This document shows positions 7,113 through 38,066 of a stretch of 38,116 nucleotides of DNA, piece by piece; position 1 is the stretch's first letter, and each line of letters opens with the position of its first letter. The DNA lies in assembly GCF_015155755.1 (NCBI RefSeq), contig NZ_VWPI01000118.1, positions 1 to 38,116 of the forward strand. Direction: 5' to 3'. Source of the DNA: Komagataeibacter sp. FXV3 (GTDB lineage: Bacteria; Pseudomonadota; Alphaproteobacteria; Acetobacterales; Acetobacteraceae). The notes beneath the pieces are model-generated. The model was not told the origin of the DNA. It worked only from the letters and a program-made list of their open reading frames with translations, and ran no database searches. Both the position numbers and the translations under genes were made by a program.

Positions 7113-7179
7113 GAAATAATACTCAAAATGCAACAAGCGGGGTGCTGGACTATTGCGCCCTGCCGACAGGATGAAAACC

Positions 7180-17130: not shown

Positions 17131-17505
17131 CCCTGTTCCCATGCGCAGGAGCCCGGGCATGAGCGGCGCACAGGGCAGCGACCTGAACCGCAGCCCGGTC
17201 GCCTGGATCATGCCGAAGGCGCATCCATTCCGCTGCATTCATGCGTGCGTGAAGCCCGGCCACGTGGCGCGGTGATAAACGGCAATCACCCCATTGATCA
17301 GGCCGAGGCCGCCGAACGCCTCATTGCCGCTCCCGAACATGAACGCATGCATGACGCGCGCCTGTGGACCTGCGGCAGAAACGCGACCGGGGTGAACGCA
17401 GCCAGCAACTGGATGATGAAGAACCCAGCCATGTCATGGTACCTGCCGTGCACAAGCTGCGTTCGGTCGTGGCGGAAACCGGGCGCCGCTTTCCCCCCAT
17501 CCCCA
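17131..17505. other. Intergenic region between convergent genes, possible gene remnant
   Basis: These 375 bases lie between the 3' ends of dld (plus) and the MFS gene (minus). GC content stays high. Two frames on the plus strand give protein-like stretches that switch frame around 17360 (AERLIAAPEHERMHDARL, then HVMVPAVHKLRSVVAETGRR). This could be a frameshifted remnant. I recognise no family, so no gene is called. Confidence 0.3.
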
Positions 17506-19647: not shown

Positions 19648-19681
19648 GATCATCCTGCAAACGGGAACGTTGATGGCGCTT

Positions 19682-21487: not shown

Positions 21488-23803
21488 TCAATTGAACCCG
21501 ATGGACACACCCGCAAAAATGCCGAACCCGTCACCTGACAGCATGGCGGCAGGCTGCTGCCCGTTGCTGGTGGAATAGACCGGCACCACACCTGTTGCGT
21601 AGTGTTTATTGGCAAGGTTGTGCAGGCTCAGGAACACCTGCCGGTGTTTGTTTGGCCACAGGTAACCGATATCAAAATTGTAGATATGATAGGGCGCGGC
21701 CTTGTACTGGTTATCATATGAAGCCAGCACGGAAGACGAGACTTCCACATCGAATGAAGTATAAAATCCGTTCTTCATATCAAGATGCAGTTCCCCCTGA
21801 TAAAAATGGCGCGGAATGCCGGGAATGTAGTTGTGTCCCCATGTTGCGTCATGATTGAAGCGGAAGCTCTGGAATGTATAGGCCTGACGTAGGGAAATGA
21901 TGTTGCCCTGCCATTTGTACAACGTTGAATGGAACGATGTTTCAACCCCCTGATGCGTTGTGGGTGATGCATTGCCGTAAGTGGAGTTGTTGTACAGGAT
22001 GGAATTGGGGGTCGCGACCGCCAGTAATTCATTATGCACGGCGGAGTGGTAGTAGGTGACACTCCATTCCGTACCGGCAAAATGACCGCTTGTCCCCACT
22101 TCAAACGTGGTGGCGGTCTGGGGGCGCAGGTTGGCCCAATCCTTTGTCAGGCCCGTGGCGATCCCCGATGTATAATTGGCGCCCGAAAGGTACTGCCAGT
22201 CCTGCGGACTCTGCACACTGCGGCTGACATTGCCATACACCTCGACATTGGGGGTAATGACGTAACGGAACCCCGCACGCGGTGCGAAATACAGCGCATT
22301 CTGGCTGAAGGAACTTGTCTGCGGGTACGTCTGTGACCCCGAACGCGGGGTATAGCTCAACGCGCCGGCTGCAGTCAGCCAGAAGTTGTGGAAGAGTTCG
22401 GTATTGTTGCGCACATGAAAAACCGTATCACTTCCCCCCAGGTGTGAACGGGTCACAAGAGTACCAAGCGCATAACCGGGATAGGCCGCCTGGCGACGCA
22501 CCCGGTTGTCAATGGTGGCGTCAAGGTCGTGCGATGTATAGATGCCGATATCCGTATCGCTGGCATGGCCCAGCAACTTGTCCTGACGTGTGTAATTCAC
22601 CATGCCGGTGGCATAGTCGATATTGTACAGTGACGAGGTATTACCCAGTTCATGGTCCATCGGCGCGTTCAGGTAGGCAAAACCAACAGTCAGCCTGGAC
22701 TGGTCGTCAATGCGGATCCTGAGCCGGTCGGCAGCATATTTGGTGCCGGGTTCAATGGTTTTTGTGCCCCATGTCGCGTATTCAGGCTGCATCTGGCGCG
22801 GATTGTCACGGATCTGGTCACGTGTCAGGTAATAGGGGTTGCCTTCCCATGTCTGGCGATAGCGGAAGAAAAAGCGGTTATCGACATTGTCGCTGAATTT
22901 GTAACCGTAATTGAAGTTCACGCCGAAATTCGTGGTCTTGGTATTGTCCTGATAGCCACCGCGATAGGAATTGGTCACACTGAGGTAATAGTCGGACCTG
23001 CCGATGACGGTGCCCGAACTCAGCTGTTCCTTGACATACCCGAAGCTGCCGGCTTCGACACGGGCCTGGTAACGCTGTGAATTATATCCCGTCTGCGTGA
23101 CGTAATTGATCGCGCCACCCAGCTGGGTGGAGCCGAAGTCAATGCCATTCCCGCCGCGCATGATCTCGGTATAACGAATGCCAAGTGGTTCCTGCAGCTC
23201 ATTGACCGTGCCGATAGGCGTAGTCAGCGGAATATCATCAAACAGAAACATGATGCCTGCACGCGTGGCGTTCAGCCCCGTCTGGATACCGGAACCCCGA
23301 ATGGAGATACGCAGGTCGTCCGATCCGCAGGGAGCCTGTGCGAAGACACCGGCCTGATACTTGAATGCATCCGCGTTGGTGGCGTTACGTCCCTTAAGCA
23401 CGGTGGCCGCGTCAATGACGCTGGTGCCCCCGGGAATGGTTTTCAGGTACACCTCCGCCTGATGCGTTGCCGCACTGTGATGATGTACGGCGATATGTTC
23501 GACCGTATTGGCATTCAGCCCGCTGCTGTCCGCATGCCCATCATGCTGGCTGGCCGCGTCATGCCCCCCTGCGGCATGCCGGACGGGGCGGTGGGGAATA
23601 CGATGCGCGGTCATGGCATCCGGCACGACAGATGTGGCTGCCACTGCATGATGGGAAGCAATCAGCGCACCAAACAGCCCACTGGCAAGGACGAAGGTAA
23701 GTCTGTTTGGCGCCTCCACGGCAGGAATGCGGCCACGATACTGGGCGTGATGGATATAGGGTGGTGATACGGTGGGGGACAGAAATAATTCACTTCTAAT
23801 CAT
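21488..23803 (-). CDS. TonB-dependent outer-membrane receptor with His-rich N-terminus
   Basis: This is a 771-residue TonB-dependent receptor for active uptake across the outer membrane. The signal peptide (LASGLFGALIASHHAVA|AT) is followed by a histidine-rich linker (about residues 65-115, 11 His) containing a possible TonB box, EHIAVHH. The plug begins at TIPGGTSVIDAATVLKGRN and includes ISIRGSGIQTG and LGGAINYV. A 22-strand barrel follows, ending in GIFAGVSIGFN with the terminal aromatic/Asn of barrel proteins. It is a clear paralogue of the receptor at 35180, sharing for example ARVEAGSFGYVKEQLSSG exactly. The two bracket the organosulfur genes, so a sulfur compound or its metal complex is a plausible ligand; iron-siderophore uptake is the default alternative. 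Confidence 0.92.
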   Translation of the reverse strand: MIRSELFLSPTVSPPYIHHAQYRGRIPAVEAPNRLTFVLASGLFGALIASHHAVAATSVVPDAMTAHRIPHRPVRHAAGGHDAASQHDGHADSSGLNANTVEHIAVHHHSAATHQAEVYLKTIPGGTSVIDAATVLKGRNATNADAFKYQAGVFAQAPCGSDDLRISIRGSGIQTGLNATRAGIMFLFDDIPLTTPIGTVNELQEPLGIRYTEIMRGGNGIDFGSTQLGGAINYVTQTGYNSQRYQARVEAGSFGYVKEQLSSGTVIGRSDYYLSVTNSYRGGYQDNTKTTNFGVNFNYGYKFSDNVDNRFFFRYRQTWEGNPYYLTRDQIRDNPRQMQPEYATWGTKTIEPGTKYAADRLRIRIDDQSRLTVGFAYLNAPMDHELGNTSSLYNIDYATGMVNYTRQDKLLGHASDTDIGIYTSHDLDATIDNRVRRQAAYPGYALGTLVTRSHLGGSDTVFHVRNNTELFHNFWLTAAGALSYTPRSGSQTYPQTSSFSQNALYFAPRAGFRYVITPNVEVYGNVSRSVQSPQDWQYLSGANYTSGIATGLTKDWANLRPQTATTFEVGTSGHFAGTEWSVTYYHSAVHNELLAVATPNSILYNNSTYGNASPTTHQGVETSFHSTLYKWQGNIISLRQAYTFQSFRFNHDATWGHNYIPGIPRHFYQGELHLDMKNGFYTSFDVEVSSSVLASYDNQYKAAPYHIYNFDIGYLWPNKHRQVFLSLHNLANKHYATGVVPVYSTSNGQQPAAMLSGDGFGIFAGVSIGFN

Positions 23804-24177
23804 TGTAGTTTTTCCATTATGACCGCAAGAAACGCATTAATTTGTTAGCGGTCATGATGGACTTTTCATACAGGCATGATGGCCCAGAATCTTAAAAATA
23901 CGGAACAGTTGTACTGAAACAACATATACACATATATTATAGTTAATTATGGACATCCTCACGCTACAACCCGGCGCGAACATTCCGAAAATATCAAAAC
24001 AATATTGTTTCTTATCAGCGTATTAATTAAAATTATGATCGGGATAATTTTACAACCCTTAGTTGCAGCCAGCTTTTCAAAAACGGAAATCTGCTTTCCA
24101 TCAACGCAAAGGATCGCATATACGGCAGGAAGACGTCCGCCACTCGGCCCGGATAATTAACAGCTCATAATTGTTGT
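23804..24177. other. AT-rich promoter region of the TonB receptor
   Basis: No gene is visible in these 374 bases. They carry an 8-bp inverted repeat in the receptor leader (23819-23855) and a perfect 14-bp palindrome, AAACAATATTGTTT (23997-24010). Both are candidates for regulator binding. A classical Fur box was looked for by eye and not found. Confidence 0.5.
23819..23855 (-). promoter_or_regulatory. Inverted repeat in the receptor leader
   Basis: ATGACCGC (23819-23826) and GCGGTCAT (23848-23855) are perfect 8-bp arms with a 21-nt spacer, ending 15 nt upstream of the receptor start codon. It could be an operator, or a leader hairpin that affects ribosome access. Confidence 0.5.
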
Positions 24178-24899
24178 TTATGGAGCCATCTTCCAATTCC
24201 ATGCATGTAACGACGGGAAGGCATGGTTAAGGTAGTCATTCCCCACAATCAGATATTTCCAGAGTACCGGATCATACAGTGTATGCGTGCGCGCATTACG
24301 CCGCAGGTCATCAAGGTTCGGCTTCCGGTCCGTGGCGGTTGTGCCGACCAGATCGATTGTCATATCGACGGCCGCCTGTATGAACTGCGATATGACACTG
24401 TCAGCAAAGGGCGCGCCGGACCTGCAGGCTTTCCAGACCGGGACGATACGACAGCACGGTACCTGCACGTCCGTCAGTTGCACGGTGCCGCTTGCCGTTC
24501 CTTTCCGACCCGTCATTGATGATGCTCAGGTCCGGCGTATTACGGTCGGCAATGGCAAGGCGGCTGTACCCGTCTTTATCAAGCGCCACGATCTGCACCA
24601 GATGCGTCAACAGTGCCGCCGTGCAGTAATGGTTGACGCCTTCCAGGGTAACGGTATCGCCATAGGCACACGGCACGGTCATGCTCCACAGCCCCGAATT
24701 GGAACAAATGCCCAGTTCACACGCGGCAAAACGGTTTTCATGGTCACGCCGCGCGAGGTCCGGCACGATCTGCCAGGCGACTTCGGCTGCAATGTGCAAT
24801 GCCTCCGGATCGTTCGCAATGACGGGCACACCCGCAGGCAGCAGGAAAAACGAGGCGGATATCAGCGTCGCCCATGCCAATAAATTCCGTAAGGGTCAT
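24178..24899 (-). pseudogene. Frameshifted secreted hypothetical protein
   Basis: Two adjoining minus-strand frames look like one broken gene. The first part (24880 down to about 24500) has a signal-like N-terminus, LLAWATLISASFFLLPAGVPVIA, then ELGICSNSGLWSMTVPCAYGD. The second part, in another frame (about 24510 down to 24178), reads VWKACRSGAPFADSV through DPVLWKYLIVGND. The natural ATG at 24899 is also out of frame by one base within a CCC run (24893-24895): dropping one C would give MTLRNLLAWAT. That suggests two frameshifts. The protein family is not recognised. It lies 40 bp beyond the stop of the leftward acyl-CoA dehydrogenase-like gene and was probably once part of that operon. Sequencing error is an alternative. 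Confidence 0.55.
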
Positions 24900-24938
24900 G
24901 ATATATCCGGTCTGGATGGGATCAGGGATGATCGGAAT

Positions 24939-26090
24939 TCATGACAGCACCCGCTGGCCCGCGACCCGACGCAGCAATTCGCCATGGGGCGCATGGATGC
25001 GGCCACACAGCGCGTCACGATGGGCACGTTCCAGCGGATTATGGGTGGACAGCCCGGCATTGCCCGCAAGACCCAGCAGGGCGGATGTAAAATCGGCCGC
25101 TGCATCGACCACGCGTGATTTTATCACGGCTGCATGTGCATTCAGTTCGGGCGGCGGGCATGTGGCCGTGACAGCCGTAGCGTAAAGCCGCAGCAGCATG
25201 GTGTTCATGTGCAGCGTAATGGCGAAGCCCCCTACGGCGTCGCGCATGGCGGGCAGGGTCGAAAGCGGCGCGCCCAGATTGGATGGCACGCGGTTTTTCA
25301 GGAATTCCCCAAACCATGTCAGCGCGGACGTGGCGATGCCATTGTACAAGGCCCCCAGCAGTCCCGTATTCCAGAGCATGAGGATATTGCGTTCTGCCGG
25401 TGGCGTATCGGGCGCATGCAGGGCCAGCGCCGCATCGGGCGGAAGCACAACCTGCGTAAAGGTGACTTCATGGCTGTTGCTGGCGCGCATACCGATATGG
25501 TCCCAGTTTTCAATGACATGAATGCCTTCTGCAATGGTCGGGACCATGAACGTGCCCACCCTTGCCGGGTCTTCATCCGTGCGGGCGCGCACCAGCAGCC
25601 ACGACAGGCCGGGAATGCCGGTGACATAGGCCTTGCGTCCGTTCAGCACCCATCCCCCGGGTGTGCGGGTCGCCACCGTGCCGGGCAGACCGCCGCGCGA
25701 TGCGGAGCCAAGATCGGGTTCCGCCAGCAGGATATTGGTCAGCCGGTCATGCTGTTCCTCTTCCATCCAGCGCACGAAATCACCGGAACCGAATTCATGG
25801 TGGGCAATCGCGGCCCGCACCATGTAATGGTTGACCATGACCAGCGCGGTGGAGGCATCACTCTGCGCAATCCGGCCCACGATTTCCTGCGCAACGCCAA
25901 GGGTAAACGGCGTGGGGCGATCGGGGGTGGAAATGCGCAGCGACAGCAGTCCCGCCTGACGCAGGTCGTCAATATTTTCCTGTGCAAAAATCCCGGTGCG
26001 GTCATGATGCGCCGCACGGGTGGCAAGGCGCGCCTGCAGATGCGTTGCCGCATCAAGGGCGTCATGTGCGGTATGTCGTATCAGGCCCAT
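24939..26090 (-). CDS. Acyl-CoA dehydrogenase-fold flavoenzyme (DszC/SfnC-like)
   Basis: This is a 383-residue protein with the acyl-CoA dehydrogenase fold. The N-terminal helical domain is followed by the beta-domain segments AEPDLGSASRGGLPGTVA and GGWVLNGRKAYVTGIPG, then the C-terminal helices. In sulfur-scavenging loci, members of this fold (DszC, SfnC) act as FMNH2-dependent monooxygenases rather than dehydrogenases. The context (SsuA-like gene 3 bp upstream, monooxygenases across the divergent promoter) supports that role by inference. Its start follows the ssuA-like stop almost directly, so translation is probably coupled. It is a distant paralogue of the enzyme at 27583. True acyl-CoA oxidation cannot be excluded. 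Confidence 0.85.
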   Translation of the reverse strand: MGLIRHTAHDALDAATHLQARLATRAAHHDRTGIFAQENIDDLRQAGLLSLRISTPDRPTPFTLGVAQEIVGRIAQSDASTALVMVNHYMVRAAIAHHEFGSGDFVRWMEEEQHDRLTNILLAEPDLGSASRGGLPGTVATRTPGGWVLNGRKAYVTGIPGLSWLLVRARTDEDPARVGTFMVPTIAEGIHVIENWDHIGMRASNSHEVTFTQVVLPPDAALALHAPDTPPAERNILMLWNTGLLGALYNGIATSALTWFGEFLKNRVPSNLGAPLSTLPAMRDAVGGFAITLHMNTMLLRLYATAVTATCPPPELNAHAAVIKSRVVDAAADFTSALLGLAGNAGLSTHNPLERAHRDALCGRIHAPHGELLRRVAGQRVLS

Positions 26091-26093
26091 GGC

Positions 26094-27053
26094 TCATGCC
26101 CCCCGCACAATGGACCGGATGTCCGGCACGGTCGGGATCAGATGCGCATGGAACAGGGTTGCCGCAATATCCTGCTGTTCTGTCACAACGGTCTGATCCA
26201 GCGGTGCGGGCTGCAACGCCAGTCGCGCCAGTGCATGGGTAATGACGGGACGGGACAGACCGGTACTGGCGGCAATATCCGCCGTCAGCGTATCGGCATG
26301 ATCCGCCGCCCATTGCACGCAGTCCTGTCGCGCCTGCGCTAGCGCAATGAAGAAGTTACCCGGATTACGGTCCGCAAACGGCCGGCTGGCAATCAGGAAC
26401 TGCCGGTTGGTCGTCACACCCTGTGCATCCACCAGCAGACGACTTTGCGTGTCCACCAGGGCCGCACTTAAATACGGATCCCATATCGCCCATGCATCCA
26501 CCCGCCCGGTCTCGAACGCGGCGCGACCGGCGGCGGGCGGCAGATAGACAGGGCGGATATCTGCCCATGCAAGCCCCGCGCGCTGCAACAGCGCCAGCAG
26601 CAGGTAGTGCACGTTGGACCCACGATTCAGGGCAATCGTGCGTCCCTTCAGGTCTGCTGGCGTCTGAATGGGACTGCTGGCGGGCACCAGCACGCCTTCG
26701 CCATGCGGGGCAGGCGCCGAACAGCCGATATAGGCCAGCCCATCAGGCCATGCGGCCTGCGCCATGACCGGGGGTGCATTGCCGGTTTCGCCAATGTCTA
26801 TGGCATCCGCCGCAAGCGCCTGCAGCAGTTGGGGACCGGCGATAAATTCGGACCACTGCACCCGCATCCCGTGCGGAGCAAGGGCGCGTTCCAGCAGCCC
26901 GCTATGTTTCAGCACCACCAGCGTACCGTACTGCTGGTAGCCTATGCGGATCGTGGCGTCCTGTGCCGCATGCGCCCGGCGGGACATCCACACGGGGCAT
27001 GACAGCGCCATGCCAAGACCGGTCAGGAACGCGCGACGTGAATACCGTTTCAT
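26094..27053 (-). CDS. SsuA-like periplasmic sulfonate-binding protein, Tat signal
   Basis: This is a 319-residue substrate-binding protein of the nitrate/sulfonate/taurine class. The N-terminus has a twin-arginine signal, SRRAFLTGLGMA, ending near RAHA|AQ. The mature part shows the family pattern: IRIGYQQYGTLVVLKHSGLLE, then VQWSEFIAGPQLLQALAADAIDIGETGNAPP (cited as a pattern), then DLKGRTIALNRGSNVHYLL and VDAWAIWDPYLSAA. In E. coli, SsuA hands aliphatic sulfonates to the SsuBC ABC transporter. No ssuB or ssuC gene occurs in this window, so the partner must be elsewhere or the protein has another role. It is the first gene of the leftward operon. Confidence 0.9.
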   Translation of the reverse strand: MKRYSRRAFLTGLGMALSCPVWMSRRAHAAQDATIRIGYQQYGTLVVLKHSGLLERALAPHGMRVQWSEFIAGPQLLQALAADAIDIGETGNAPPVMAQAAWPDGLAYIGCSAPAPHGEGVLVPASSPIQTPADLKGRTIALNRGSNVHYLLLALLQRAGLAWADIRPVYLPPAAGRAAFETGRVDAWAIWDPYLSAALVDTQSRLLVDAQGVTTNRQFLIASRPFADRNPGNFFIALAQARQDCVQWAADHADTLTADIAASTGLSRPVITHALARLALQPAPLDQTVVTEQQDIAATLFHAHLIPTVPDIRSIVRGA

Positions 27054-27582
27054 TGCAGGCTTACCTGTAACAGGGGTGGGGCGTATGCCGTCCGATGAAT
27101 CCCAGCCGGTCGATGAATCGGGCCGGAGATGAATGGCATATTTAACAATATTAAACCGTTAATATGTATTTATGACATTATAAACGTAAATTCATATGTC
27201 AACGGGATATTCTCCTTCCGCCCGGGTTTTTGGCATGAGCATGCCGTGCGGATCACGCGCCGATTCAGGGGCGATGCGGTCAGGATATTATATAACGATA
27301 GAATTTGTATAATTTAACGGCTATGTGCTTGTCACGTATAATACGATTTTTTATGTTATATTTTCCTGAAAAATATCATTTTAAAACAGCGTTATAATAA
27401 AATTCAGGCGCTTTCTTTAAACTATTTTTATGTGAAATTGACCAGAATTTCCCCTTAATCCCCCATATAAAATCACATGATGTCGTTGTTATTTTATTGA
27501 CTCATATATTGTCGTTGTTAGTGTTTGTGAAATGTAAATGCGCATACAAAATAGTTTAAATATGCACGCAATCGAGGTCGCC
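27054..27582. promoter_or_regulatory. Divergent promoter region of the organosulfur operons
   Basis: About 530 bases separate the two divergent operons and are much more AT-rich than the genes. No gene is visible. TGTCGTTGTTA occurs twice (27481-27491 and 27510-27520), 29 bp apart on centres, 63 bp before the rightward start. A perfect inverted repeat GAAATT-6-AATTTC lies at 27434-27451. TTGACT (27497-27502) and TATATT (27505-27510) resemble promoter hexamers but are too close together to form one promoter. A CysB/Cbl-type or sigma-54-linked control would fit the gene content, but no regulator gene is present. Confidence 0.5.
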
Positions 27583-28854
27583 ATGACAGATCCGGTCCAT
27601 CCTCCCCACGGTTTTTCCCCACGGATTGATGCGCTTGCGCACAGGCTGCGCCCGGTTTTCGCGCGCATTGCCGATGGCGCCATTGACCGCGAAGAAAACC
27701 GTATCCTGGCCCATGACGCGGTACGGTGGCTGCTGGATGCCGGTTTTGGCGCGCTGCGCGTGCCGGTGCGTTATGGCGGCAGCGGGGCCAGCCTGCCGGA
27801 AACCTTCGCGCTTCTGGCCGAACTGGCCGAAGCGGATTCAAACCTGCCGCAGATCTTCCGTGCCCATTTCGCCTTTGTCGAAGGACGCCTGCATGAGGGG
27901 GACAGTCCACGCGCCGCATACTGGCTGGAACAGGTGGCGCAGGGTGCGCTGTTTGGCGCTGCCATGGCGGAACTGACGGACAGTACCGGCACCACCACCA
28001 CCCTTGCGCCCGATCCGCAGGGGCAGTGGCTGCTGGATGGCACGAAATACTATTCCACCGGCACGCTTTATGCGTCGTGGATTGTTGCCGTCGCAACCGA
28101 TGGAACGGACCGCATCCAGCTTGTCGTACCTGCCGACGCCCCCGGCGTGACCCGCATTGATGACTGGGATGGTTTTGGCCAGCGCCTGACCGGCAGCGGC
28201 ACGACACATTTCAAAAATGTTGCCGTGCCCGATGATCACATCATCAACCGCACGCCGCTTTCCGAATTCCCCACCAACGAATATTTCACCACCTATTACC
28301 AGCTTTTCCACCTTGCCACGCTGGCGGGGATCGGGCGGGCTATCGTGCGCGATGCGGTGGCCTTCGTGCGTCCGCGCACACGTACATTCGGCGTTCCCGG
28401 GCAGGTGGCGCAGCGCCATGACCCGCTGGTGCAGGGCGTGGTAGGACGCCTGTCTGCCCTGTCATTTTCAGCCGATACACTGGTGGAAAAAGTGGCATGG
28501 ACGCTGGAAGCAGCCTTCCCGCAATGGGCGGCGGGGCACGAAAATGGCCCGGCCTTCGATACGGCGCAGTTACGCGCCTATCAGGCGCAGCAGATCGTGG
28601 CAGGCCAGGTGCTGGAAGCAGCGACGCTGCTGTTTGAGGTGGGCGGGGCCTCGGCCACCAGCACGTCACGGCGGCTGGACCGTCACTGGCGCAACGCCCG
28701 CACGCTGGCGTCGCATAACCCATTGGTCCACCGGCAGCGTGAACTGGGTGACCTTGTGCTGAATGGCACGGCATTCGGTTCGCGCTGGCGCGATCGGACC
28801 GCGACCGTCACCCAGCCTGTCTCCACCAATGCGCAGCAGGAACACGCAGCATGA
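27583..28854 (+). CDS. Acyl-CoA dehydrogenase-fold monooxygenase (DszC/SfnC-like)
   Basis: This is a 423-residue enzyme of the same fold and length as DszC, the FMNH2-dependent sulfur oxygenase. Recognisable blocks are FGALRVPVRYGGSGASLPET, LPQIFRAHFAFVEG, the beta-domain GQWLLDGTKYYSTGTLYA and DDWDGFGQRLTGSGTTHF, and the C-terminal ASATSTSRRLDRHWRNARTL, typical of this monooxygenase branch. ATG 27583 has GAGG five bases upstream, while ATGs at 27538 and 27562 lack one. It is first in the rightward operon and overlaps the next gene by four bases. Its likely role is oxygenation of a thioether or sulfoxide-like sulfur, or of a carbon next to sulfur; the substrate is not known. It needs reduced flavin, presumably from the reductase at 34403. 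Confidence 0.88.
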   Translation: MTDPVHPPHGFSPRIDALAHRLRPVFARIADGAIDREENRILAHDAVRWLLDAGFGALRVPVRYGGSGASLPETFALLAELAEADSNLPQIFRAHFAFVEGRLHEGDSPRAAYWLEQVAQGALFGAAMAELTDSTGTTTTLAPDPQGQWLLDGTKYYSTGTLYASWIVAVATDGTDRIQLVVPADAPGVTRIDDWDGFGQRLTGSGTTHFKNVAVPDDHIINRTPLSEFPTNEYFTTYYQLFHLATLAGIGRAIVRDAVAFVRPRTRTFGVPGQVAQRHDPLVQGVVGRLSALSFSADTLVEKVAWTLEAAFPQWAAGHENGPAFDTAQLRAYQAQQIVAGQVLEAATLLFEVGGASATSTSRRLDRHWRNARTLASHNPLVHRQRELGDLVLNGTAFGSRWRDRTATVTQPVSTNAQQEHAA

Positions 28855-30281: not shown

Positions 30282-30283
30282 CC

Positions 30284-31447
30284 ATGTCCCATGCAGTTCC
30301 TGACAAGATCAATGTGCTGTGGTTCCTGCCCACCCATGGCGACAGCCGCTACCTTGGCACGCAGAAGGGCGGCAGGCCGGTTGACCTGCCGTACCTGCAG
30401 CAGGTGGCAAAGGCTGCCGATACGCTGGGATATTACGGTGTCCTGATCCCGACGGGACGCAGTTGCGAGGATAGCTGGGTTGTCGCCTCTGCCCTCGCCC
30501 CCGTGACCGAACGGCTGCGTTACCTGATCGCGGTCAGGCCGGGCCTGCTGTCACCCACACTGGCCGCGCGCATGACCGCGACACTGGACCGTTTTTCCAA
30601 CGGACGGCTGCTGATCAATATCGTGACCGGTGGCGACCCGGCGGAAAACGCAGGCGACGGCCTGTTTGCCGACCATGCCACGCGCTACGAAATCACGGAC
30701 GAATTCCTGGATATCTACCGCGCGCTACTGCGCGGCGAGAGTGTCAATTTTGAAGGAAAGCACTTTACCATAAAGGACGGCCGCCTGCTGTTCGCGCCGT
30801 ACCAGAATGACGGGCCGCCGCTGTATTTTGGGGGATCATCGGAAGCGGCTGCCCATGTCGCCGCAAAATCGGTGGACAAATACCTGACATGGGGCGAACC
30901 CCCGGCACAGGTGGCGGAAAAGATCAGTCATGTGCGCAAACTGGCCCATGCGCAGGGGCGCGAGGTATCATTTGGCATCCGGCTGCATGTCATCGTGCGT
31001 GAAACGGCGGAGGAGGCATGGCATGAAGCCGACCGCCTGATCAGCCATCTCGATGATGCCACCATTGCCAAGGCCCAGAAGGTCTTCGCCCGCATGGATT
31101 CCGTGGGTCAGTCACGCATGAGCGCCCTGCACGGCGGCCAGCGCGACAGGCTGGAAATCAGTCCCAACCTGTGGGCAGGCGTGGGCCTGGTGCGCGGTGG
31201 AGCCGGGACCGCGCTGGTAGGTGATCCCGATACGGTGGCGGAGCGGATTGATGAATACCGCAGGCTGGGCATCGATACGTTCATTTTCTCCGGCTATCCG
31301 CATCTGGAGGAAGCCTACCAGTTCGGTGAACTCGTGCTGCCCAACCTGCCGACCACACACCCCGTGCGCGGGGCGTCGGACCTGAACAACATGGGGCCGT
31401 TTGGCGAAACCATCGCGGGTGACCATCGTCCGACCCGCGCCGCCTGA
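30284..31447 (+). CDS. ssuD: Alkanesulfonate monooxygenase SsuD
   Basis: This FMNH2-dependent monooxygenase desulfonates alkanesulfonates to aldehyde plus sulfite, which the cell can assimilate. Its 387 residues align along the E. coli SsuD sequence I remember. Shared features are [14 protein letters not shown] at the start, the active-site Cys in [10 protein letters not shown], the flavin-side [15 protein letters not shown], the arginine in [13 protein letters not shown], and the mobile-loop region [17 protein letters not shown]. It requires a flavin reductase, most likely the one encoded at 34403. It starts two bases after the upstream stop. The SsuD assignment is strong, although the exact chain-length preference is unknown. 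Confidence 0.95.
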
Positions 31448-31463
31448 TGACAGGAGCCGTGCC

Positions 31464-32900
31464 ATGCCCGTTTCCCCCCACATTCCCCATATCGCCATTA
31501 TCGGCGGCGGGTTCAGCGGTGCGGCGCTGGCGTGGCACCTTGCGCGCGACACCAGCACGCCAAGGCGTATCACCGTGTTCGAACCGCGCCCCTTTCTTGG
31601 CGCGGGGCTGGCCTATGGCGCGACCGACCCACAGCACCGGGTAAACGTGCCAGCAACCCGCATGAGCATCGATACCAGCCAGCCCGATGATTTCGCCAGA
31701 TGGATCGGGCAGACGGATGCGCTGGCCAATGACCCGGCAGCCTTCAGGCCGGATGGCAGTGCGTTTCCCGCCCGTGCCATATTCGGTCGCTACGTGGCCA
31801 ACCGGCTGGCACCGGTGCTGCATGCGGGTGTGGTGACGCACCTGCGCCACAAGGTGGCGGGCGTGTACAGATCGTCTGTTGGCCACTGGATCATTACGGA
31901 TGTCATGGGGCAGGCTACGGCCGCTGATATTGTGGTCATCGCCACCAGTCACCCTGCGCCACAGCCTCCGAAGCTGCTGCGTGACCTGCACCTGCATGCG
32001 GGCCGTCATCCCGTTCTGGTCACCAATCCATGGCAGGCTGGGGCGCTGGAGGATATCCGTACGTCTGACCGTGTCCTGATCGTTGGCACGGGGCTGAGCA
32101 TGGCGGATGCCATCGTCACACTGACGGCACGCGGGCATGATGGCAAGATTACCGCCATTTCCCGGCGTGGGCAGCGTTCGCATGGACATGCGGCACATGC
32201 CGTTGACCCGGTGGGGCAATTCATCTCCCCACCGTCGCGCACGGTCGGCCATCTGCTGCGTCGCGTGCGTCATGCGCTGGCCGCCCATCCTGACCAGCCA
32301 TGGCAGGCCATATTTGACCGGCTGCGAGAACAGGCGCCCGATATATGGGCCGCCCTGCCACTGCCTGAACGCAGGCGGCTGATCCGGCACCTGCGGCCGT
32401 TCTGGGATACGCACCGTTTCCGTATCGCGCCACAGGCTGAAGACGTGCTGCATGCGCGCGAACGTGCCGGAACGCTGGACATCACGGCCGCACGGCTGGC
32501 CGCCGTACAGGTGAAGCGGGACCGTTTTGTCACGACCCTTCGCCATGGCGACACCGTGTGGGGCGGGACGTATGACACCATCATCACCACGACGGGACCG
32601 GCGCATGACGCCATCATCCATACCGTGCCGTACATACGCGAACTGGCGGCTGCCGGTCTGGTGGAAATGGATGCAACCGGGCTGGGCCTGCATGTGGATG
32701 CGCTGGGACGCGCCTGTGTCGGCAGCGGGCATGAAGACACCCTGTTCGTGGCGGGACCACTGGCGCGCGGGCGGTTCGGGGAACTGATGGGGCTGCCCGA
32801 AGTCACGCGTCATGCCGAAAAGCTGGCTGTCATCATAAGCGCGCTGTCGGCGTCGCTTCCCATTGTCCATTACCCTGAAAAAGAACGGGCAACGACATGA
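31464..32900 (+). CDS. FAD/NAD(P)-binding protein (NAD_binding_9 type)
   Basis: This is a 478-residue flavoprotein. The N-terminal Rossmann motif IAIIGGGFSGAALAWHL binds FAD, followed by GAGLAYGATDPQHRVNVPA, characteristic of the FAD-NAD(P)-binding family. A second dinucleotide motif, VLIVGTGLSMADAIV, lies mid-protein. Such proteins occur in several sulfur-scavenging loci, and their function is not established. It may oxidise or dehydrogenate an intermediate, or regenerate a cofactor. ATG 31464 has AGGAG seven bases upstream. In-frame reading from 31401 would overlap ssuD and is rejected. Its stop overlaps the next gene's ATG, placing it firmly in the operon. Confidence 0.85.
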   Translation: MPVSPHIPHIAIIGGGFSGAALAWHLARDTSTPRRITVFEPRPFLGAGLAYGATDPQHRVNVPATRMSIDTSQPDDFARWIGQTDALANDPAAFRPDGSAFPARAIFGRYVANRLAPVLHAGVVTHLRHKVAGVYRSSVGHWIITDVMGQATAADIVVIATSHPAPQPPKLLRDLHLHAGRHPVLVTNPWQAGALEDIRTSDRVLIVGTGLSMADAIVTLTARGHDGKITAISRRGQRSHGHAAHAVDPVGQFISPPSRTVGHLLRRVRHALAAHPDQPWQAIFDRLREQAPDIWAALPLPERRRLIRHLRPFWDTHRFRIAPQAEDVLHARERAGTLDITAARLAAVQVKRDRFVTTLRHGDTVWGGTYDTIITTTGPAHDAIIHTVPYIRELAAAGLVEMDATGLGLHVDALGRACVGSGHEDTLFVAGPLARGRFGELMGLPEVTRHAEKLAVIISALSASLPIVHYPEKERATT

Positions 32901-34396
32901 CTACATTGGCGCAGACCCATCATGACCGTCCCGTCGTGCGCGATGCGGATGACATATCCGCCCTTGTAAATGCGGGCCCGCGGGCGGGCAGCCATGCACG
33001 CATGGTTGTAGCCCTGGCACTGGGGGGTGTGTTTCTGGATGCATATGACCTGACCACCCTGTCATGGGGCATTTCGGATGTGCAGACGCATTTTGGCCTG
33101 TCCGCGTTCCAGACCGGGCTGGTGGCAGCCGCACTGAATGCCGGAACCATCGTGGGCAGCCTGGCTGGCGGATGGCTGACGGACCGCATCGGGCGGTACG
33201 CCGTGTTCATGGCCGATATGGTGTGCTTTGTCATTGCAGCCCTGGTGGCGGGGGCAGCACCCACGGCCGGCATCCTGATCGCGGCGCGTTTCGCCATGGG
33301 GTTCGGGGTGGGCATGGACCTGCCGGTGGCGATGGCGTTCCTGTCGGAATTCTCGCGGCTGGAGGGACGGGGCAGCAAGGCGGCCCATGCGGCAGCGTGG
33401 TGCCCGACATGGTACGCCGCGTCATCCGCGTGCTTCGTGATCGTATTTGCCCTGTCTTATGTGCTGCCAGCGGGCCATCCCGACTGGCTGTGGCGGGCAT
33501 CGCTGGCGTTTGGCGCGGTCCCGGCACTGGTCATCATTGCGGTGCGCGGGCGATACATGAGTGAATCCCCCGTATGGATCGCCCGCCGGGGTGACCTGCA
33601 GCGTGCGGCTGACATCCTGCGCCGGTCGTACGGAATTAACCCTGTCGTCCGTGCCATGCCGGGACAGGCGCCGGTGGTCATGCAGGCCGATCCATGGCGG
33701 CTGGCACGACGGCCGCTACTGCAACGCGGACTGATGGTTGTCAGCATGACGCTGATCAGCAGCATGTCCTACAACATCATCATATTTGGCCTGCCCACGC
33801 TGCTGGTATCCATCATGCATGCCAGTCCGGTGCAGGTCGTGGTGATTTCCATCATCCTCAACCTGGCCGTGGCCTTTCCCGGTGGCCTGCTGGGCGTGCG
33901 CCTGACGCGCAGTGTGCGCTCCCGGCCCATTATCCTGGCGGGATATCTCATGCAGGTGGCCGGGATCGGGGCGCTGGCCCTGACCGGCATGCCGCATGGG
34001 ACGACGGGCATCATCGTTGCCCTTGCCGGTTTTGCCGCCTTCCTGTTCGCGCAGGGATTCGGGCCGGGATGCCAGCTTATGGTCTATCCCACCCTTAGCT
34101 ATCCCACTGAACTGCGGGGACTGGGCATAGGTATCGCACGGCTGGTTTCGGGCATTGGCGGCACGCTTATCCTGCTGTCCTTCCCGTGGATGAATATACA
34201 CCTTGGCCCCGCGCTGTTCTGGGTGGTGCTGGCGGCGCCGCTGGCGGGTGTGGTGATTGCCTTTTTCTCGCGCTGGGATGTGTTCGGCTACGACCCCGAC
34301 ATGGACCCCGCATTGCGCCAGCAGGTCCCACCCGTACGGCGGAACACGGTTCCGGATACGAGCGACCTGCTGTTTTCCACTGATATCAGGAACTGA
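32897..34396 (+). CDS. MFS transporter, metabolite:H+ symporter type
   Basis: This is a 499-residue, 12-helix major facilitator. Helix 1 has VFLDAYDLTTLSWGI, the D-x-x-D arrangement of the aromatic-acid:H+ and sugar symporter groups. The loop 2-3 motif is GGWLTDRIGRYAVF. Helix 4 has ARFAMGFGVGMDLPVAMAFL, and the repeated motif after helix 10 is YPTLSYPTELRGLGIG. These point to an importer rather than a drug exporter. Within the operon it is the only inner-membrane transporter and so could bring the organosulfur substrate into the cytoplasm in place of SsuBC. It could equally export a desulfurised product. It overlaps the previous gene by four bases. Confidence 0.88.
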   Translation: MTTLAQTHHDRPVVRDADDISALVNAGPRAGSHARMVVALALGGVFLDAYDLTTLSWGISDVQTHFGLSAFQTGLVAAALNAGTIVGSLAGGWLTDRIGRYAVFMADMVCFVIAALVAGAAPTAGILIAARFAMGFGVGMDLPVAMAFLSEFSRLEGRGSKAAHAAAWCPTWYAASSACFVIVFALSYVLPAGHPDWLWRASLAFGAVPALVIIAVRGRYMSESPVWIARRGDLQRAADILRRSYGINPVVRAMPGQAPVVMQADPWRLARRPLLQRGLMVVSMTLISSMSYNIIIFGLPTLLVSIMHASPVQVVVISIILNLAVAFPGGLLGVRLTRSVRSRPIILAGYLMQVAGIGALALTGMPHGTTGIIVALAGFAAFLFAQGFGPGCQLMVYPTLSYPTELRGLGIGIARLVSGIGGTLILLSFPWMNIHLGPALFWVVLAAPLAGVVIAFFSRWDVFGYDPDMDPALRQQVPPVRRNTVPDTSDLLFSTDIRN

Positions 34397-34402
34397 TTGA
34401 CC

Positions 34403-34942
34403 ATGACCAATGTCATTGCGCCGTTTGGCTATGACTCATCTGACGAAGCGGCCGTCAGTGCCGACCTGTTTCGCAACGGCATGGCGGCGTTGCCGGGCGC
34501 GGTTACGGTCGTGACGACGGACGGCCCGCATGGACCACACGGCTTTACGGCATCGGCGGTATGCAGCGTATCGGATACGCCCCCAACGCTGCTGGTGTGC
34601 ATCAACCGCACCACCAGTGCACATCCTTATATCCTGAAACATGGTGTGCTGGTCATCAATGTCCTGCATGAGGCGCAGCACGAACTGTCAAATACCTTCA
34701 GCAGTCGGTCGCGGTCCATGGCGGAACGTTTCGCGACAGGCAAGTGGCATACGGGCCTGACCGGTGCGCCAGTTCTGGATGATGCGCTGGTCAGCTTTGA
34801 CTGCCGCATCCGTGAAATCCGTGATGTGGGAACGCATACGGTCGTCATTGCGCATGTGGTTGATGTCATCGTGGGCAATGATGATGTCCGCCCGGCCCTT
34901 GTCTGGTTCAACCGGCAGTACAGCCGCGTCATTCCCAAATAA
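34403..34942 (+). CDS. Flavin reductase (NAD(P)H:FMN oxidoreductase)
   Basis: This is a 179-residue protein of the flavin-reductase-like domain family (small component of two-component monooxygenases, DszD/HpaC type). Typical blocks are LPGAVTVVTTDGPHGPHGFTASAV, then CSVSDTPPTLLVCINRTTSAH, then VLVINVLHEAQHELSNTFS and the C-terminal RPALVWFNRQYSRV. It would reduce FMN with NAD(P)H and supply FMNH2 to the operon's monooxygenases. ATG 34403 is six bases after the MFS stop, with AGGAA ten bases upstream. TTG 34397 in frame is less likely. It is the last gene of the operon. A truncated repeat copy follows 15 bp downstream. Confidence 0.92.
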   Translation: MTNVIAPFGYDSSDEAAVSADLFRNGMAALPGAVTVVTTDGPHGPHGFTASAVCSVSDTPPTLLVCINRTTSAHPYILKHGVLVINVLHEAQHELSNTFSSRSRSMAERFATGKWHTGLTGAPVLDDALVSFDCRIREIRDVGTHTVVIAHVVDVIVGNDDVRPALVWFNRQYSRVIPK

Positions 34943-34957
34943 AAATAAAATTTCCCG

Positions 34958-35018
34958 GGTGCTGCCTTTATTCAAAAAGATAACGTTTTCTGAAAAAAGC
35001 TTCACCAAAAAGCTTCCT
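34958..35018 (-). repeat. Dispersed palindromic repeat, copy F (inverted, internally deleted)
   Basis: In reverse orientation this copy shows GTGCTGCCTTTATTCAAAAA, then CTGAAAAAAGCTTCACC and AAAAAGCTTCC. The region between the two palindromes is partly lost. It sits 15 bp after the operon's last stop, so it may mark or cause the transcript end. Confidence 0.7.
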
Positions 35019-35036
35019 TACGATTTCCGGAATATT

Positions 35037-35066
35037 CCATGGACAATATTTCGAAATAGTCCATGG
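35037..35066. promoter_or_regulatory. 30-bp palindrome upstream of the second TonB receptor
   Basis: CCATGGAC (35037-35044) and GTCCATGG (35059-35066) are perfect arms around a perfect inner palindrome, TATTTCGAAATA (35047-35058), with two unpaired bases between. It lies 113 bp before the receptor start. It could be an operator or form a strong hairpin. Confidence 0.55.
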
Positions 35067-35179
35067 GACGTTTCCGTTCAGGAAACAGTAAAATGTGTAC
35101 ACGATAAGAACTAATGAAATGAAGAAAAAATATTCACAAAATAATCATGCACATGCATGCATTCATGGAATCATTCCCA

Positions 35180-37453
35180 ATGACACGGATATCCGTACGC
35201 CCCCCGTCTGACAGATATCTTTTCCGATCCCGTCTCCTGTCGCGTCGGACGACAGTCTTGGTCGGTTCCTCCCTGCTGGGTCTTGCGCGTGGCGCGTTTG
35301 CAGCAGACACCGTGGCGCCGTCCGCCTTGCCACATAGCCATGAAACGCAGCATGTCCGGCCCGCGCGGCAGAACGTGGCGCCCGCCGCGCCCGATCAGGC
35401 AGCCCCTTCACCTGCACGACCGGAAGTCATTTCCGTCTCGCGCCATCGCCTGTCACCCGCATCCCGGGCAGAGTCACGCCTGGCATCCATTCCCGGCGCA
35501 ACCAGCGTGATTGACGCGCAGAAAGTGCTGAAGGGCCGTAACTTCACCAATGCGGATGCCCTGTCATTCCAGCCCGGCGTATTCGCACAGTCCTCGGGCG
35601 GGGGGGATGGCATACGCCTGTCAATTCGCGGGTCGGGCATTGCCACCGGCACCAATTACTTCCGCTCCGGCCTGCTTATGATGTTTGACGGTCTGCCAGT
35701 AACCACGCCCGCTGGCACGCCCTATGAACTGTTTGAGCCGCTGGGCCTGCGTTATACCGAGGTACTACGCGGGGCGAATGCTTTCGATTATGGTGGCATG
35801 CAGCTTGGTGGCGCGCTGAATTACGTGTCCATGACCGGATATGACGCACAACGTTATCAGGCCCGTGTCGAAGCGGGCAGCTTTGGCTACGTCAAGGAAC
35901 AGCTCAGTTCCGGCGGCGTATTTGGCAAGTTTGATTATTATATTAGCGCCACCAATTCATATCGCGGCGGCTATCAGGACAATACAAAGGCAACCAGTTT
36001 CGGGCTGAACGCCAATTTTGGCTACCGTTTCAATGACCGCGTATCAACACGGGCGTTTTTTCGCTACCGGCAGACTGAAAACGGCTATCCCGGTTACCTG
36101 ACGCGCGACCAGATCCTGTCCAACCCCAGACAGGCGCAGTCACCGTATTATGCATGGGGATCACACCGTATCCAGCCTGGCACGAAGTATTACGGATCCA
36201 TGACCACCATACGAATTGATGACAAATCAAGGATCGAGGTCGGCGGCAATTATCAGGACGCCCCGATTGATATCCAGAATACCGCATCATCCCAGATATG
36301 GGGATACAAGACGATAGCAGGCGTGCTGAATTACGACCGGCATGATGTACTGGCAGGCCACAGGAGCGACACGCAGTTCGGTATCCTGAGCTATACCGAT
36401 ATCGAGGCATGGCAACGCAACCGCATTCGCGTCAGCAGTGTATTCGGTGGCGTGCCGGACGGTACGTTGCTGCGTAATATAAAGTATGGCGGCACGGAAA
36501 ACTATTTCCATCTGCGCAACAATACCGAGGTCGCGCACAACCTGTGGCTGACGGCGGCGGGTGCGGTCGCCTTCATCAAACGCACATCGGATGTCACCTA
36601 TCCCAACCGCAGTGATCTGCACACCACTTCGGTCAACTTCATTCCGCGTGGTGGGTTCCGTTATATTCCGGACAAGCATGTGGAGATATACGGTAATGTC
36701 AGCCGCAGCCTGCAGCCGCCCAATGACTGGAACTACAATTATGCCGGTAATTACTATAACGCGGCCAGTTATCCGTTACAGGCGGCAGCAGGAGAGAATT
36801 CTACATCGGGTCGCCTGCGCAACCAGACTGCGACCACGTTTGAAATCGGAACGACAGGGCATTATTTCCATAATAAATGGAGTCTGAGTTACTATCATTC
36901 CTCAGTCCATAATGAACTGCTTACGGTAACAACACCGGCATCGCTTGCGGCGGGTACATCGATTTACGGTAATGCCTCGTCCACCATGCATCAGGGTGTC
37001 GAGGTTTCGCTGGAAACGGAACTGCTGAAATGGGCGGGCAATACGCTATCGCTGCGGCAGGCCTATACATATCAGGATTTCCGTTACAGGCATGATGCCG
37101 TTTTTGGCAATAATCACCTGCCCGGAATTCCTGAACATTTCTATCAGGGTGAAATCCACCTGGATATGCGCAACGGGTTTTACGCCAGTTTCAATGCGCA
37201 GGTTTCGTCCAGGGTGGGCGCATCCTATGACATGACGTATTTCGCCCCCGCCTACCACATCTATAACGCCAATATCGGTTATTCCTGGCCGCACAAACAT
37301 CGTGAAGTTTTCATAAGCTTCAACAACCTTGCCAATACACATTACGCGGCCATTGTCGTGCCCGGTTATCAGGCAGCGGGCAAGCAGTTGTCGGTCATGC
37401 AACCGGGGGATGGATTTGGCGTGTTTGTCGGCGCGTCAATCGGGTTTGACTGA
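35180..37453 (+). CDS. TonB-dependent outer-membrane receptor
   Basis: This is a TonB-dependent receptor of 757 residues from ATG 35180. The signal peptide (TTVLVGSSLLGLARGAFA|AD) precedes a Pro/Ala-rich linker and a likely TonB box in EVISVSRHRLSPA. The plug starts at SIPGATSVIDAQKVLKGRN and includes LSIRGSGIATG and LGGALNYV. The barrel ends in VFVGASIGFD. It is a full-length paralogue of the receptor at 21488, and the alignment runs through plug and barrel. ATG 35180 has GGAA ten bases upstream, while ATG 35147 lacks a site. It is transcribed alone after the organosulfur operon. Uptake of the operon's substrate is inferred from position only. Confidence 0.92.
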   Translation: MTRISVRPPSDRYLFRSRLLSRRTTVLVGSSLLGLARGAFAADTVAPSALPHSHETQHVRPARQNVAPAAPDQAAPSPARPEVISVSRHRLSPASRAESRLASIPGATSVIDAQKVLKGRNFTNADALSFQPGVFAQSSGGGDGIRLSIRGSGIATGTNYFRSGLLMMFDGLPVTTPAGTPYELFEPLGLRYTEVLRGANAFDYGGMQLGGALNYVSMTGYDAQRYQARVEAGSFGYVKEQLSSGGVFGKFDYYISATNSYRGGYQDNTKATSFGLNANFGYRFNDRVSTRAFFRYRQTENGYPGYLTRDQILSNPRQAQSPYYAWGSHRIQPGTKYYGSMTTIRIDDKSRIEVGGNYQDAPIDIQNTASSQIWGYKTIAGVLNYDRHDVLAGHRSDTQFGILSYTDIEAWQRNRIRVSSVFGGVPDGTLLRNIKYGGTENYFHLRNNTEVAHNLWLTAAGAVAFIKRTSDVTYPNRSDLHTTSVNFIPRGGFRYIPDKHVEIYGNVSRSLQPPNDWNYNYAGNYYNAASYPLQAAAGENSTSGRLRNQTATTFEIGTTGHYFHNKWSLSYYHSSVHNELLTVTTPASLAAGTSIYGNASSTMHQGVEVSLETELLKWAGNTLSLRQAYTYQDFRYRHDAVFGNNHLPGIPEHFYQGEIHLDMRNGFYASFNAQVSSRVGASYDMTYFAPAYHIYNANIGYSWPHKHREVFISFNNLANTHYAAIVVPGYQAAGKQLSVMQPGDGFGVFVGASIGFD

Positions 37454-37484: not shown

Positions 37485-37912
37485 ATGAAAGAAATCTGCC
37501 GCAACGCATTTAGCATGCACTGCGTATCCCATCAGACCAGTGACCTGCAGCGGCGCTTACGTGACCGATCGGACCATTATCATACCCAGTAATACTGGAT
37601 AGATCTGACTTGCATGCTTGAACGCGATCTGTTTGATGCCCTGTTCCAAGCAGATGTACTGGGCATGTATGATGTATATGGTGCGTCGACCAATATGGCA
37701 TTGCGCAATGCGGCACAAATTCAGGTCCATGAATGATCCTGCGATGCTGATTTCGGCCATGGCGTCAGTAATGCGTAATCTGGGCTTTGCCTGACAGCAA
37801 CCCTGTCGTACGGATATCCGTTTCCCTTTGCGTAGCGCATGTCCACGCTGGATCATCTGACACAGGGACGCATCGAGTAGAATATCGTCACAGGTTACAT
37901 AAAACAGCTGTG
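37485..37912 (+). pseudogene. Decayed NtaA/DszA-family LLM monooxygenase
   Basis: Reading across frames recovers the N-terminal third of a flavin-dependent monooxygenase. It runs ICRNAFSMHCVSHQTSDL from ATG 37485, then LRDRSDHYHTQ, a stop at 37590, and YWIDLTCMLERDLFDALFQA plus DVLGMYDVYGASTNMALRNA. A frame change near 37730 leads to NDPAMLISAMASVMRNLGFA. A second shift near 37791 restores the first frame with TATLSYGYPFPFA, a stop, RMSTLDHLTQGRIE, a stop, and NIVTGY. The intact enzyme at 28851 has the matching order ([35 protein letters not shown]). At least three in-frame stops, two frameshifts and loss of the last two-thirds show an old, dead copy. It is cut off just before the rRNA operon terminator. 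Confidence 0.85.

Positions 37913-37989: not shown

Positions 37990-38066
<77 letters not shown>

Follow-up and report, generated by a model that had tools for sequence, protein, structure and literature searches.

An organosulfur gene island between two TonB-dependent receptors in Komagataeibacter sp. FXV3, a candidate sulfur-scavenging module

In Pseudomonas, sulfones are converted by way of sulfinates and sulfonates to sulfite, as set out in the available part of one account (PMC8234197), and in Acinetobacter ADP1 a dimethylsulfide (DMS) pathway leads from the thioether to sulfite with several flavin monooxygenases and one reductase, according to the available part of another (PMC13352529). 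As far as these parts of the two papers go, group D enzymes form S-O bonds and group C enzymes break C-S bonds in both pathways, with a single reductase serving several oxygenases (PMC8234197, PMC13352529), and in ADP1 on DMS the genes msuE and dms1 rise more than 1000-fold (PMC13352529). Here, we describe a locus of related enzyme make-up in Komagataeibacter sp. FXV3, whose draft genome comprises 3.6 Mb in 208 contigs. The stretch analysed, hereafter the window, spans contig C22 in full (38,116 nucleotides), and it contains a gene island in which flavin monooxygenases stand between two TonB-dependent receptors (TBDRs). We consider it likely that this island is a sulfur-scavenging module, which would import an organic sulfur compound and release its sulfur as sulfite. 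By analogy with the pathways above, the best reading is a sulfur-starvation island in which sulfone or sulfinate would pass through sulfonate to sulfite, with TonB uptake added.

The island consists of two divergent arms with 484 bases between them (27054-27537; Table 1). On the forward strand, the right arm runs SfnB1, LLM, SsuD, an FAD/NAD(P)-binding protein (the FAD protein), an MFS transporter, a flavin reductase and TBDR2, and its spacing is operon-like, as the open reading frames (ORFs) overlap or nearly touch through the reductase, with a gap of ~0.2 kb before TBDR2. On the reverse strand, the left arm carries SsuA, ACAD2, a pseudogene of a second SfnB (SfnB2) and TBDR1. An initial annotation, made from the sequence without database searches, had named ten of these genes; each of the ten proved to be an open reading frame encoding the domains expected of it, and the gene block is real. 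Domain scans of the island ORFs found no SsuB, SsuC or SsuE, nor was any regulator gene found there. SfnB1 probably starts near 27583 instead of 27538, because a GAGG and an ATG at that point are conserved in K. swingsii (L047), A. pomorum (L048) and K. diospyri (L088); the FAD protein likely starts near 31464, in agreement with the annotated start in K. saccharivorans.

Table 1. Features of the island and its right-hand border, in window coordinates
Feature	Coordinates	Strand	Basis or remark
TBDR1, TonB-dependent receptor, 771 aa	21488..23803	-	Pfam plug and barrel above cut-off
SfnB2, pseudogene of SfnB-family group D monooxygenase	24196..24899 (about)	-	tblastn, intact K. swingsii gene as query
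ACAD2, acyl-CoA-dehydrogenase-fold flavoprotein, 383 aa	24939..26090	-	Pfam PF02770, PF08028, PF00441
SsuA-like sulfonate-binding protein, 319 aa	26094..27053	-	TIGR01728 above cut-off
Promoter-like element ATTGACTC-N10-GTTGTTAR, precedes right-arm operon	27496..27521	+	Conservation
SfnB1, SfnB/MsuC-like group D FMNH2-dependent monooxygenase	27538..28854, start probably 27583	+	SfnB model, MsuC structure
LLM, NtaA/DmoA-family flavin monooxygenase, 476 aa	28851..30281	+	TIGR03860
SsuD, FMNH2-dependent alkanesulfonate monooxygenase	30284..31447	+	TIGR03565
FAD/NAD(P)-binding protein, class B N-hydroxylase-like fold	31464..32900	+	Pfam PF13454, AlphaFold2, Foldseek
MFS transporter (Sugar_tr/MFS_1)	32897..34396	+	Pfam
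Flavin reductase, PF01613 family, RutF/HpaC-like	34397..34942	+	Pfam; below RutF/HpaC cut-offs
TBDR2, TonB-dependent receptor, 768 aa	35147..37453	+	Pfam plug and barrel above cut-off
LLM2, shortened pseudogene with in-frame stops	37485..37901	+	Match to intact 448-aa gene
tRNA-Met gene	37990-38066		At contig end, shortly after LLM2

Family calls were taken from curated NCBIfam and Pfam cut-offs, and the nearest solved structures from sequence matches in the PDB, given in bits. SsuD passes the alkanesulfonate monooxygenase equivalog (TIGR03565; 621 vs 518 bits) and SsuA passes TIGR01728 (194 vs 163.5 bits). The initial description of the block as an organosulfur island is supported. The nearest structure to SsuD is MsuD of P. 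fluorescens (7jv3, 580 bits), followed by 1nqk and 1m41 (536 bits), which we take to be E. coli SsuD. The entry 7JV3 is named as MsuD in the available part of the structural account (PMC8234197). LLM scores above the cut-off of the NtaA/DmoA subfamily (TIGR03860; 485 vs 280 bits). In its initial label, ‘NtaA/DszA-like’, the DszA half is not supported, since DszA (233 bits) trails the alkane monooxygenase 3b9n (458 bits), presumably LadA, as well as DmoA (381 bits) and a hexachlorobenzene dehalogenase (333 bits). Likewise, the description of SfnB1 and ACAD2 as two DszC-like flavoenzymes has to be given up, with scores of 114 and 51 bits against a DszC cut-off of 850. The best solved relative of SfnB1 is MsuC, the methanesulfinate monooxygenase, which is distant at 130 bits, with TdsC (110) and DszC (about 90) further off; against the SfnB model (TIGR04022), SfnB1 reaches 250 of the 431 bits of the cut-off. 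ACAD2 has no equivalog: its best NCBIfam match is a desulfinase model (93 vs 600 bits) and its best PDB match is 5gj7/5z8t (135 bits), and from such scores it can be assigned to the acyl-CoA dehydrogenase fold only in general terms. The flavin reductase is of the PF01613 type and not of the SsuE type. Among the window enzymes tested, no SfnG equivalog was found (LLM 78 and SsuD 165 bits vs a cut-off of 383). Taken singly, the enzymes belong to well-known folds and are unremarkable within them.

A sequence search of the PDB with the FAD protein gave no match at E 0.001. The AlphaFold2 model of the FAD protein, built from a 40-sequence alignment, has a mean predicted local distance difference test score (pLDDT) of 87.8, and the glycines of two motifs are invariant across 40 sequences, in line with a fold that holds both FAD and NAD(P) Rossmann sites. 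The top Foldseek matches of the model are the class B N-hydroxylating monooxygenases FzmM, DesB, SidA and PvdA, with TMq of about 0.58-0.74, identities of 13-18% and root-mean-square deviations mostly of 5-10. Because ferredoxin-NADP reductase and dihydrolipoamide dehydrogenase also appear among the top 50 matches, we take the general two-dinucleotide fold of the predicted structure as secure and treat the N-hydroxylase type as a lead only.

Conservation of the island was examined in two samples. The first was drawn by an alignment scan of named genomes with the FAD protein, keeping the loci of the best 80 of 518 relatives, 20 of which belong to acetic acid bacteria by name; identity thresholds were set for each gene, and contig ends truncate some of the loci. 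As the loci were chosen through the FAD protein, its own count is no evidence. Of the 20 acetic-acid-bacterial loci, 19 combine LLM and SsuD with the FAD protein, accompanied by SfnB1 in 18 and by a TBDR of either type in 16, and the reductase is found in 18. The linkage, whose absence from relatives would have spoken against the initial reading, is conserved. At the same thresholds, LLM, SfnB1, MFS, reductase and TBDR were found in none of the 60 non-acetic loci and SsuD in five; in 46 of the 60, a weaker relative of SfnB, LLM or SsuD lies in the neighbourhood. The second sample, independent of the FAD protein, comprised 120 Acetobacteraceae genomes including that of FXV3. Here, LLM (at least 65% identity) was present in 6 genomes, SfnB1 (at least 55%) in 7, the FAD protein (E 1e-60) in 15, SsuD (E 1e-130) in 25 and a TBDR2-type receptor (E 1e-80) in 5, each time beside the island. 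SfnB1 is the direct neighbour of LLM in all five other genomes that have this LLM; SsuD and the FAD protein follow in four of them (the exception being G071), and a receptor lies on the contig of LLM in four, the operon of G117 reaching a contig end. The TBDR2-type receptors of the four other genomes share a contig with LLM and SfnB1, about 1-7 kb from LLM, and none was found away from the island among the up to eight first-look candidates scored per genome in this sample, strengthening the view that the receptors belong to the island. LLM is 97-99% identical in K. europaeus, K. swingsii and K. diospyri. In the latter two (L047 and L088), the left arm keeps the order TBDR1, SfnB2, ACAD2, SsuA, with TBDR1 extending to the end of the examined stretch in both, and the right arm reads SfnB1, LLM, SsuD, FAD protein, MFS, reductase, TBDR2, LLM2.

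Related clusters also occur on plasmids. Two K. saccharivorans plasmids carry the stretch from SfnB1 to the reductase at 79.7% DNA identity over 99% of the query, and three enterobacterial plasmids examined (from Chimaeribacter arupi, Pantoea deleyi and Pantoea dispersa) hold a rearranged cluster with no receptors, in which the homologues of SsuD (68-69%), MFS (50-51%), SfnB (44-45%), the FAD protein (40-43%) and LLM (40-41%) are retained. A true SfnG is present in one of these three clusters (598 vs 383 bits), and the clusters of the enterobacterial relatives hold either an SfnG equivalog or genes annotated as SfnB. Since the Pantoea and Chimaeribacter plasmids cluster homologous genes, the gene make-up, as judged from homology, is a variant of a wider module and not private to acetic acid bacteria. 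Around the island in A. pomorum and K. diospyri lie a phage-integrase family gene and transposase-like ORFs (L048:971-2461 and 17392-17820; L088:17656-18663), which, read from the ORF starts, look like insertion sequence (IS) transposases and fit a patchy spread. Beside the enterobacterial clusters, we also observed a sigma-54 activator (AAA+ and Fis helix-turn-helix) with a C-terminal SsuA-like domain (L027:5789-7690 and L028:5800-7689, both on the minus strand; the same fusion at L029:3774-5705, minus strand, by annotation and tblastn only). By its domains this is apparently a cytoplasmic sulfonate-sensing regulator, and our literature search found no description of a sigma-54 activator with a fused SsuA domain. 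Sigma-54-like sites (9/11 scored positions) precede ssuD in L027 and L028.

How might these proteins work together? TBDR1 and TBDR2 would bring an organosulfur molecule over the outer membrane with TonB energy, and the use of TonB receptors suggests a solute too large or too scarce for porins. The inner membrane could be crossed through the MFS transporter, or through SsuA acting with an unlinked SsuC-like permease and ATP-binding cassette (ABC) ATPase. The FAD protein might oxidise a thioether or amine ahead of the other oxygenases, whereupon LLM would cleave the C-S bond of a sulfone-level intermediate to yield a sulfinate, SfnB1 would turn the sulfinate into a sulfonate, and SsuD would split the sulfonate into sulfite and an aldehyde, the flavin reductase providing FMNH2 for LLM, SfnB1 and SsuD. 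The SsuD step follows from its equivalog match; we infer the other steps, their order and the substrate from family membership and linkage, and the exact order, although the likeliest, is offered tentatively, as one that may well prove wrong. Two likenesses support the scheme: the nearest structures of SfnB1 and SsuD, namely MsuC and MsuD, belong to neighbouring steps of one known pathway, and DmoA, a near solved relative of LLM, is a dimethylsulfide enzyme. The initial suggestion of a multi-step route of S-oxygenation and C-S cleavage that would end in SsuD thus gains support.

A serious, though less favoured, possibility is that the genes form a loose set, in which SsuD and the reductase use ordinary alkanesulfonates and LLM, SfnB1 and the FAD protein each act on separate small sulfur compounds, so that the island would still scavenge sulfur with no single pathway. 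This fits the promiscuity and redundancy of the organosulfur monooxygenases in known systems, as far as the available parts of the literature describe them, and the varying gene content of relatives, many of which do without MFS, SsuA or ACAD2. Yet the co-occurrence of SfnB1, LLM, SsuD and the FAD protein in 18 of the 20 FAD-selected acetic-acid-bacterial loci speaks for joint action, as does the grouping of homologues of these four and MFS on the three enterobacterial plasmids. Somewhat more doubtful is a dedicated route from outer membrane to sulfite, where the island's TonB receptor subfamily would import one particular organosulfur molecule that is bulky or bears an amino group, priming would fall to a class B FAD monooxygenase (an N- or S-oxygenase), LLM, SfnB1 and SsuD would then dismantle the molecule, and MFS would replace SsuABC.

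For the scavenging module that we prefer, the transport genes deserve a closer look. TBDR1 and TBDR2 both pass the Pfam plug and barrel models and are 55% identical in the own-genome search, in keeping with the initial view of two paralogous receptors at the edges; the nearest solved structures to TBDR2 are YncD (87 bits) and the pyrroloquinoline quinone (PQQ) transporter (86 bits). SsuA falls short of the model PRK11553 (253 vs 299 bits) and matches the solved sulfonate-binding protein 2x26 with 202 bits; no second match of this kind was found in its own genome at E 0.01, and its leader contains SRRAFLT, presumably a twin-arginine (Tat)-type motif. A PF00528 profile search of the own genome for permeases gave 17 matches, of which ten proteins (11 of the 17 matches) were classified and those behind L130, L136, L139, L141, L142 and L144 left unclassified. 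Contig C90 holds an SsuC-like permease (255 vs a cut-off of 347 bits) and an ABC ATPase, unlinked to the island and with no SsuA-like gene there. Two weaker sulfonate/taurine-type permeases, on C175 and on C184 (the latter with an adjacent ABC ATPase), may be partners of SsuA as well. At about 61.9-64.2 kb of C90 (L145:3907-6155), the permease, the ABC ATPase and a nitroreductase-family protein lie in a row, and in A. pomorum another nitroreductase-family gene (L048:3939-4559) adjoins ACAD2. An ORF of L077 was tried as an SsuC probe and dropped, as it has no NCBIfam match and its own-genome counterpart reads as an alpha/beta hydrolase.

It is unlikely that SsuA is no part of a transporter and instead serves as a ligand sensor or as an enzyme of the same fold (DszB). 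This idea draws on the lack of ABC genes in the island, on the fusion of an SsuA domain to a sigma-54 activator in the Pantoea and Chimaeribacter clusters, and on a weak match to DszB of 23 bits. It is opposed by the Tat-type leader, which would put SsuA outside the cytoplasm, and by the C90 permease and ABC ATPase, which have no SsuA-like gene of their own; the far higher score to the solved sulfonate-binding protein disfavours the DszB reading in particular.

A route for DMS, dimethyl sulfoxide and dimethyl sulfone like that of the Acinetobacter dms-msu-ssu genes, with the TonB receptors present by association only, seems less probable still. Shared enzyme classes, a single shared reductase and the true SfnG in a relative's cluster are consistent with it, but the window enzymes tested include no SfnG equivalog, the link between TBDR and island is strong, and such small solutes should not need a TonB receptor. 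Finally, a siderophore or metallophore locus, with TonB receptors, an N-hydroxylase-like FAD protein, MFS export and the sulfur-type genes as passengers, is very improbable: TBDRs and MFS proteins are common in siderophore loci and amino-acid and diamine N-hydroxylases head the Foldseek matches of the FAD protein, but no siderophore synthetase domain was found among the proteins scanned (window 7153-37453), SfnB1, LLM, SsuD, reductase and SsuA point to sulfur, and relatives of the FAD protein keep SfnB, LLM or SsuD relatives nearby in the 46 non-acetic loci mentioned above.

Several observations weigh against the scavenging module itself. The case is built from sequence comparison and predicted structure. 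None of the equivalog cut-offs listed is reached by SfnB1, the reductase or ACAD2, and LLM passes a broad subfamily model only. MFS is found in just 8, ACAD2 in 4 and SsuA in 3 of the 20 acetic-acid-bacterial loci, so that, with some loci cut by contig ends, none of them can be essential everywhere. A genome of the same genus (G060) shows SsuD only (75% identical), with LLM, SfnB1, TBDR and the FAD protein all missing at the thresholds applied; the distribution of the island, as far as homology searches trace it, is therefore conserved but patchy. Moreover, the window genome has lost one SfnB and one LLM that are intact in relatives, and its own pathway may therefore be reduced or decaying. 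Neither pseudogene featured in the initial annotation. SfnB2 survives as five pieces in three frames, 64-73% identical to an intact 416-aa K. swingsii protein, of which about residues 81-161 and 284-357 are without counterpart; the intact protein clears the SfnB model (541 bits against a cut-off of 431). LLM2 corresponds to residues 1-138 of an intact second LLM of 448 aa in A. pomorum (63% identical), and it is full-length (at least 441 residues aligned, at least 68% identical) in 13 of the 20 acetic-acid-bacterial loci, with one more ending at a contig edge.

The promoter-like element of Table 1 lies ahead of the right arm. An exact copy of its core stands in seven loci (L026, L047, L048, L049, L052, L054 and L088), which come from K. 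swingsii, K. diospyri, A. pomorum, A. tropicalis, A. senegalensis and, with both L049 and the plasmid L026, K. saccharivorans. Six of the seven belong to the 20 acetic-acid-bacterial loci; the seventh, L026, diverges in sequence further upstream. In the remaining 14 of the 20 no exact copy occurs, and for some of these the upstream DNA is missing. In the own genome, with up to two mismatches, the element matches at the island site only. A reversed control also gave one match, so rarity by itself is no proof; the case for the element is its conservation, from which it looks like a core promoter of the right-arm operon. A search for a sigma-54 promoter ahead of the operon in the window gave best candidates with 7/11 scored positions, and the idea was dropped; scans for sigma-70 promoters and terminators gave no excess over shuffled sequence (9 vs 9.4 and 14 vs 13.5). 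At the right-hand end, the tRNA-Met gene after LLM2 is a possible recombination point. To the left of the island lie two overlapping ORFs of 267 and 358 aa (19003-20758, minus strand) with no Pfam match at E 0.001, and further left a sulfotransferase-family gene (12348-13112, minus strand) inside a stretch of low GC content (48-53%) and a GH68 levansucrase-family gene (7153-8472, plus strand).

Bacteria associated with plants and fruit meet much of their available sulfur in organic form, and TonB-linked sulfate-ester genes are known from Pseudomonas (sftP). The main interest of the island lies in its receptor link and its FAD protein: if the receptors import an organosulfur compound, the island would allow TonB-driven sulfur acquisition to be put to the test, and the FAD protein would, if the proposal is true, give sulfur assimilation a new entry enzyme. 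We regard the island as a candidate niche-adaptation trait of acetic acid bacteria, because it is present in some genomes of the genus and missing from another, is plasmid-borne in K. saccharivorans and is related to enterobacterial plasmid clusters. No description of a comparable island in acetic acid bacteria was found in the accessible parts of the literature, mostly open-access and with bioRxiv outside, which agrees with the initial statement that none of the same make-up was known. Within those parts, acetic acid bacteria and alkanesulfonate monooxygenase met only in work on osmotic stress in Gluconobacter, the combination of Komagataeibacter, sulfonate and TonB-dependent receptor retrieved nothing, and titles and abstract starts on Komagataeibacter and organosulfur compounds showed none on the organism's sulfur assimilation. 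In the available main text of a study of sulfonates in X. citri, ABC systems appear and TonB is unmentioned (PMC4501297), and the available parts of three further papers give no organosulfur TonB receptor in sulfur starvation (PMC2996968, PMC12581299, PMC5443232). Most of the enzyme types are known; what looks undescribed is their association with dedicated outer-membrane receptors and with an unusual FAD enzyme.

Set against the described systems, the island shares with Pseudomonas sfn/msu (SfnG, MsuC, MsuD and MsuE; dimethyl sulfone) its group C and D two-component monooxygenases, a reductase and a terminal SsuD/MsuD; unlike sfn/msu, no SfnG equivalog or regulator gene was found in it, its reductase is of the PF01613 family, and it adds the NtaA/DmoA-family LLM, the FAD protein, MFS and two TonB receptors. 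The DMS system of Acinetobacter baylyi ADP1 (Dms1-3, MsuD, MsuC, SsuD and MsuE), likened here by class, has the same enzyme classes and one reductase, whereas ‘TonB’ is absent from the available main text of the ADP1 paper (PMC13352529). An SsuD equivalog and an SsuA-family protein recall the alkanesulfonate operon ssuEADCB, from which the island departs in being without SsuB, SsuC and SsuE and in having several further oxygenases. Two monooxygenase folds (LLM and acyl-CoA dehydrogenase) are shared with the dszABC genes of 4S desulfurisation, but SfnB1 and ACAD2 are far under the DszC cut-off, LLM is nearer to structures other than DszA, and no DszB model is among the NCBIfam matches of the island proteins. 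Lastly, the K. saccharivorans cluster (plasmid p221732, L026), although plasmid-borne and with no left-arm gene within its 31-kb stretch, has the identical seven-gene order of the right arm and a TBDR2 protein that is 87% identical.

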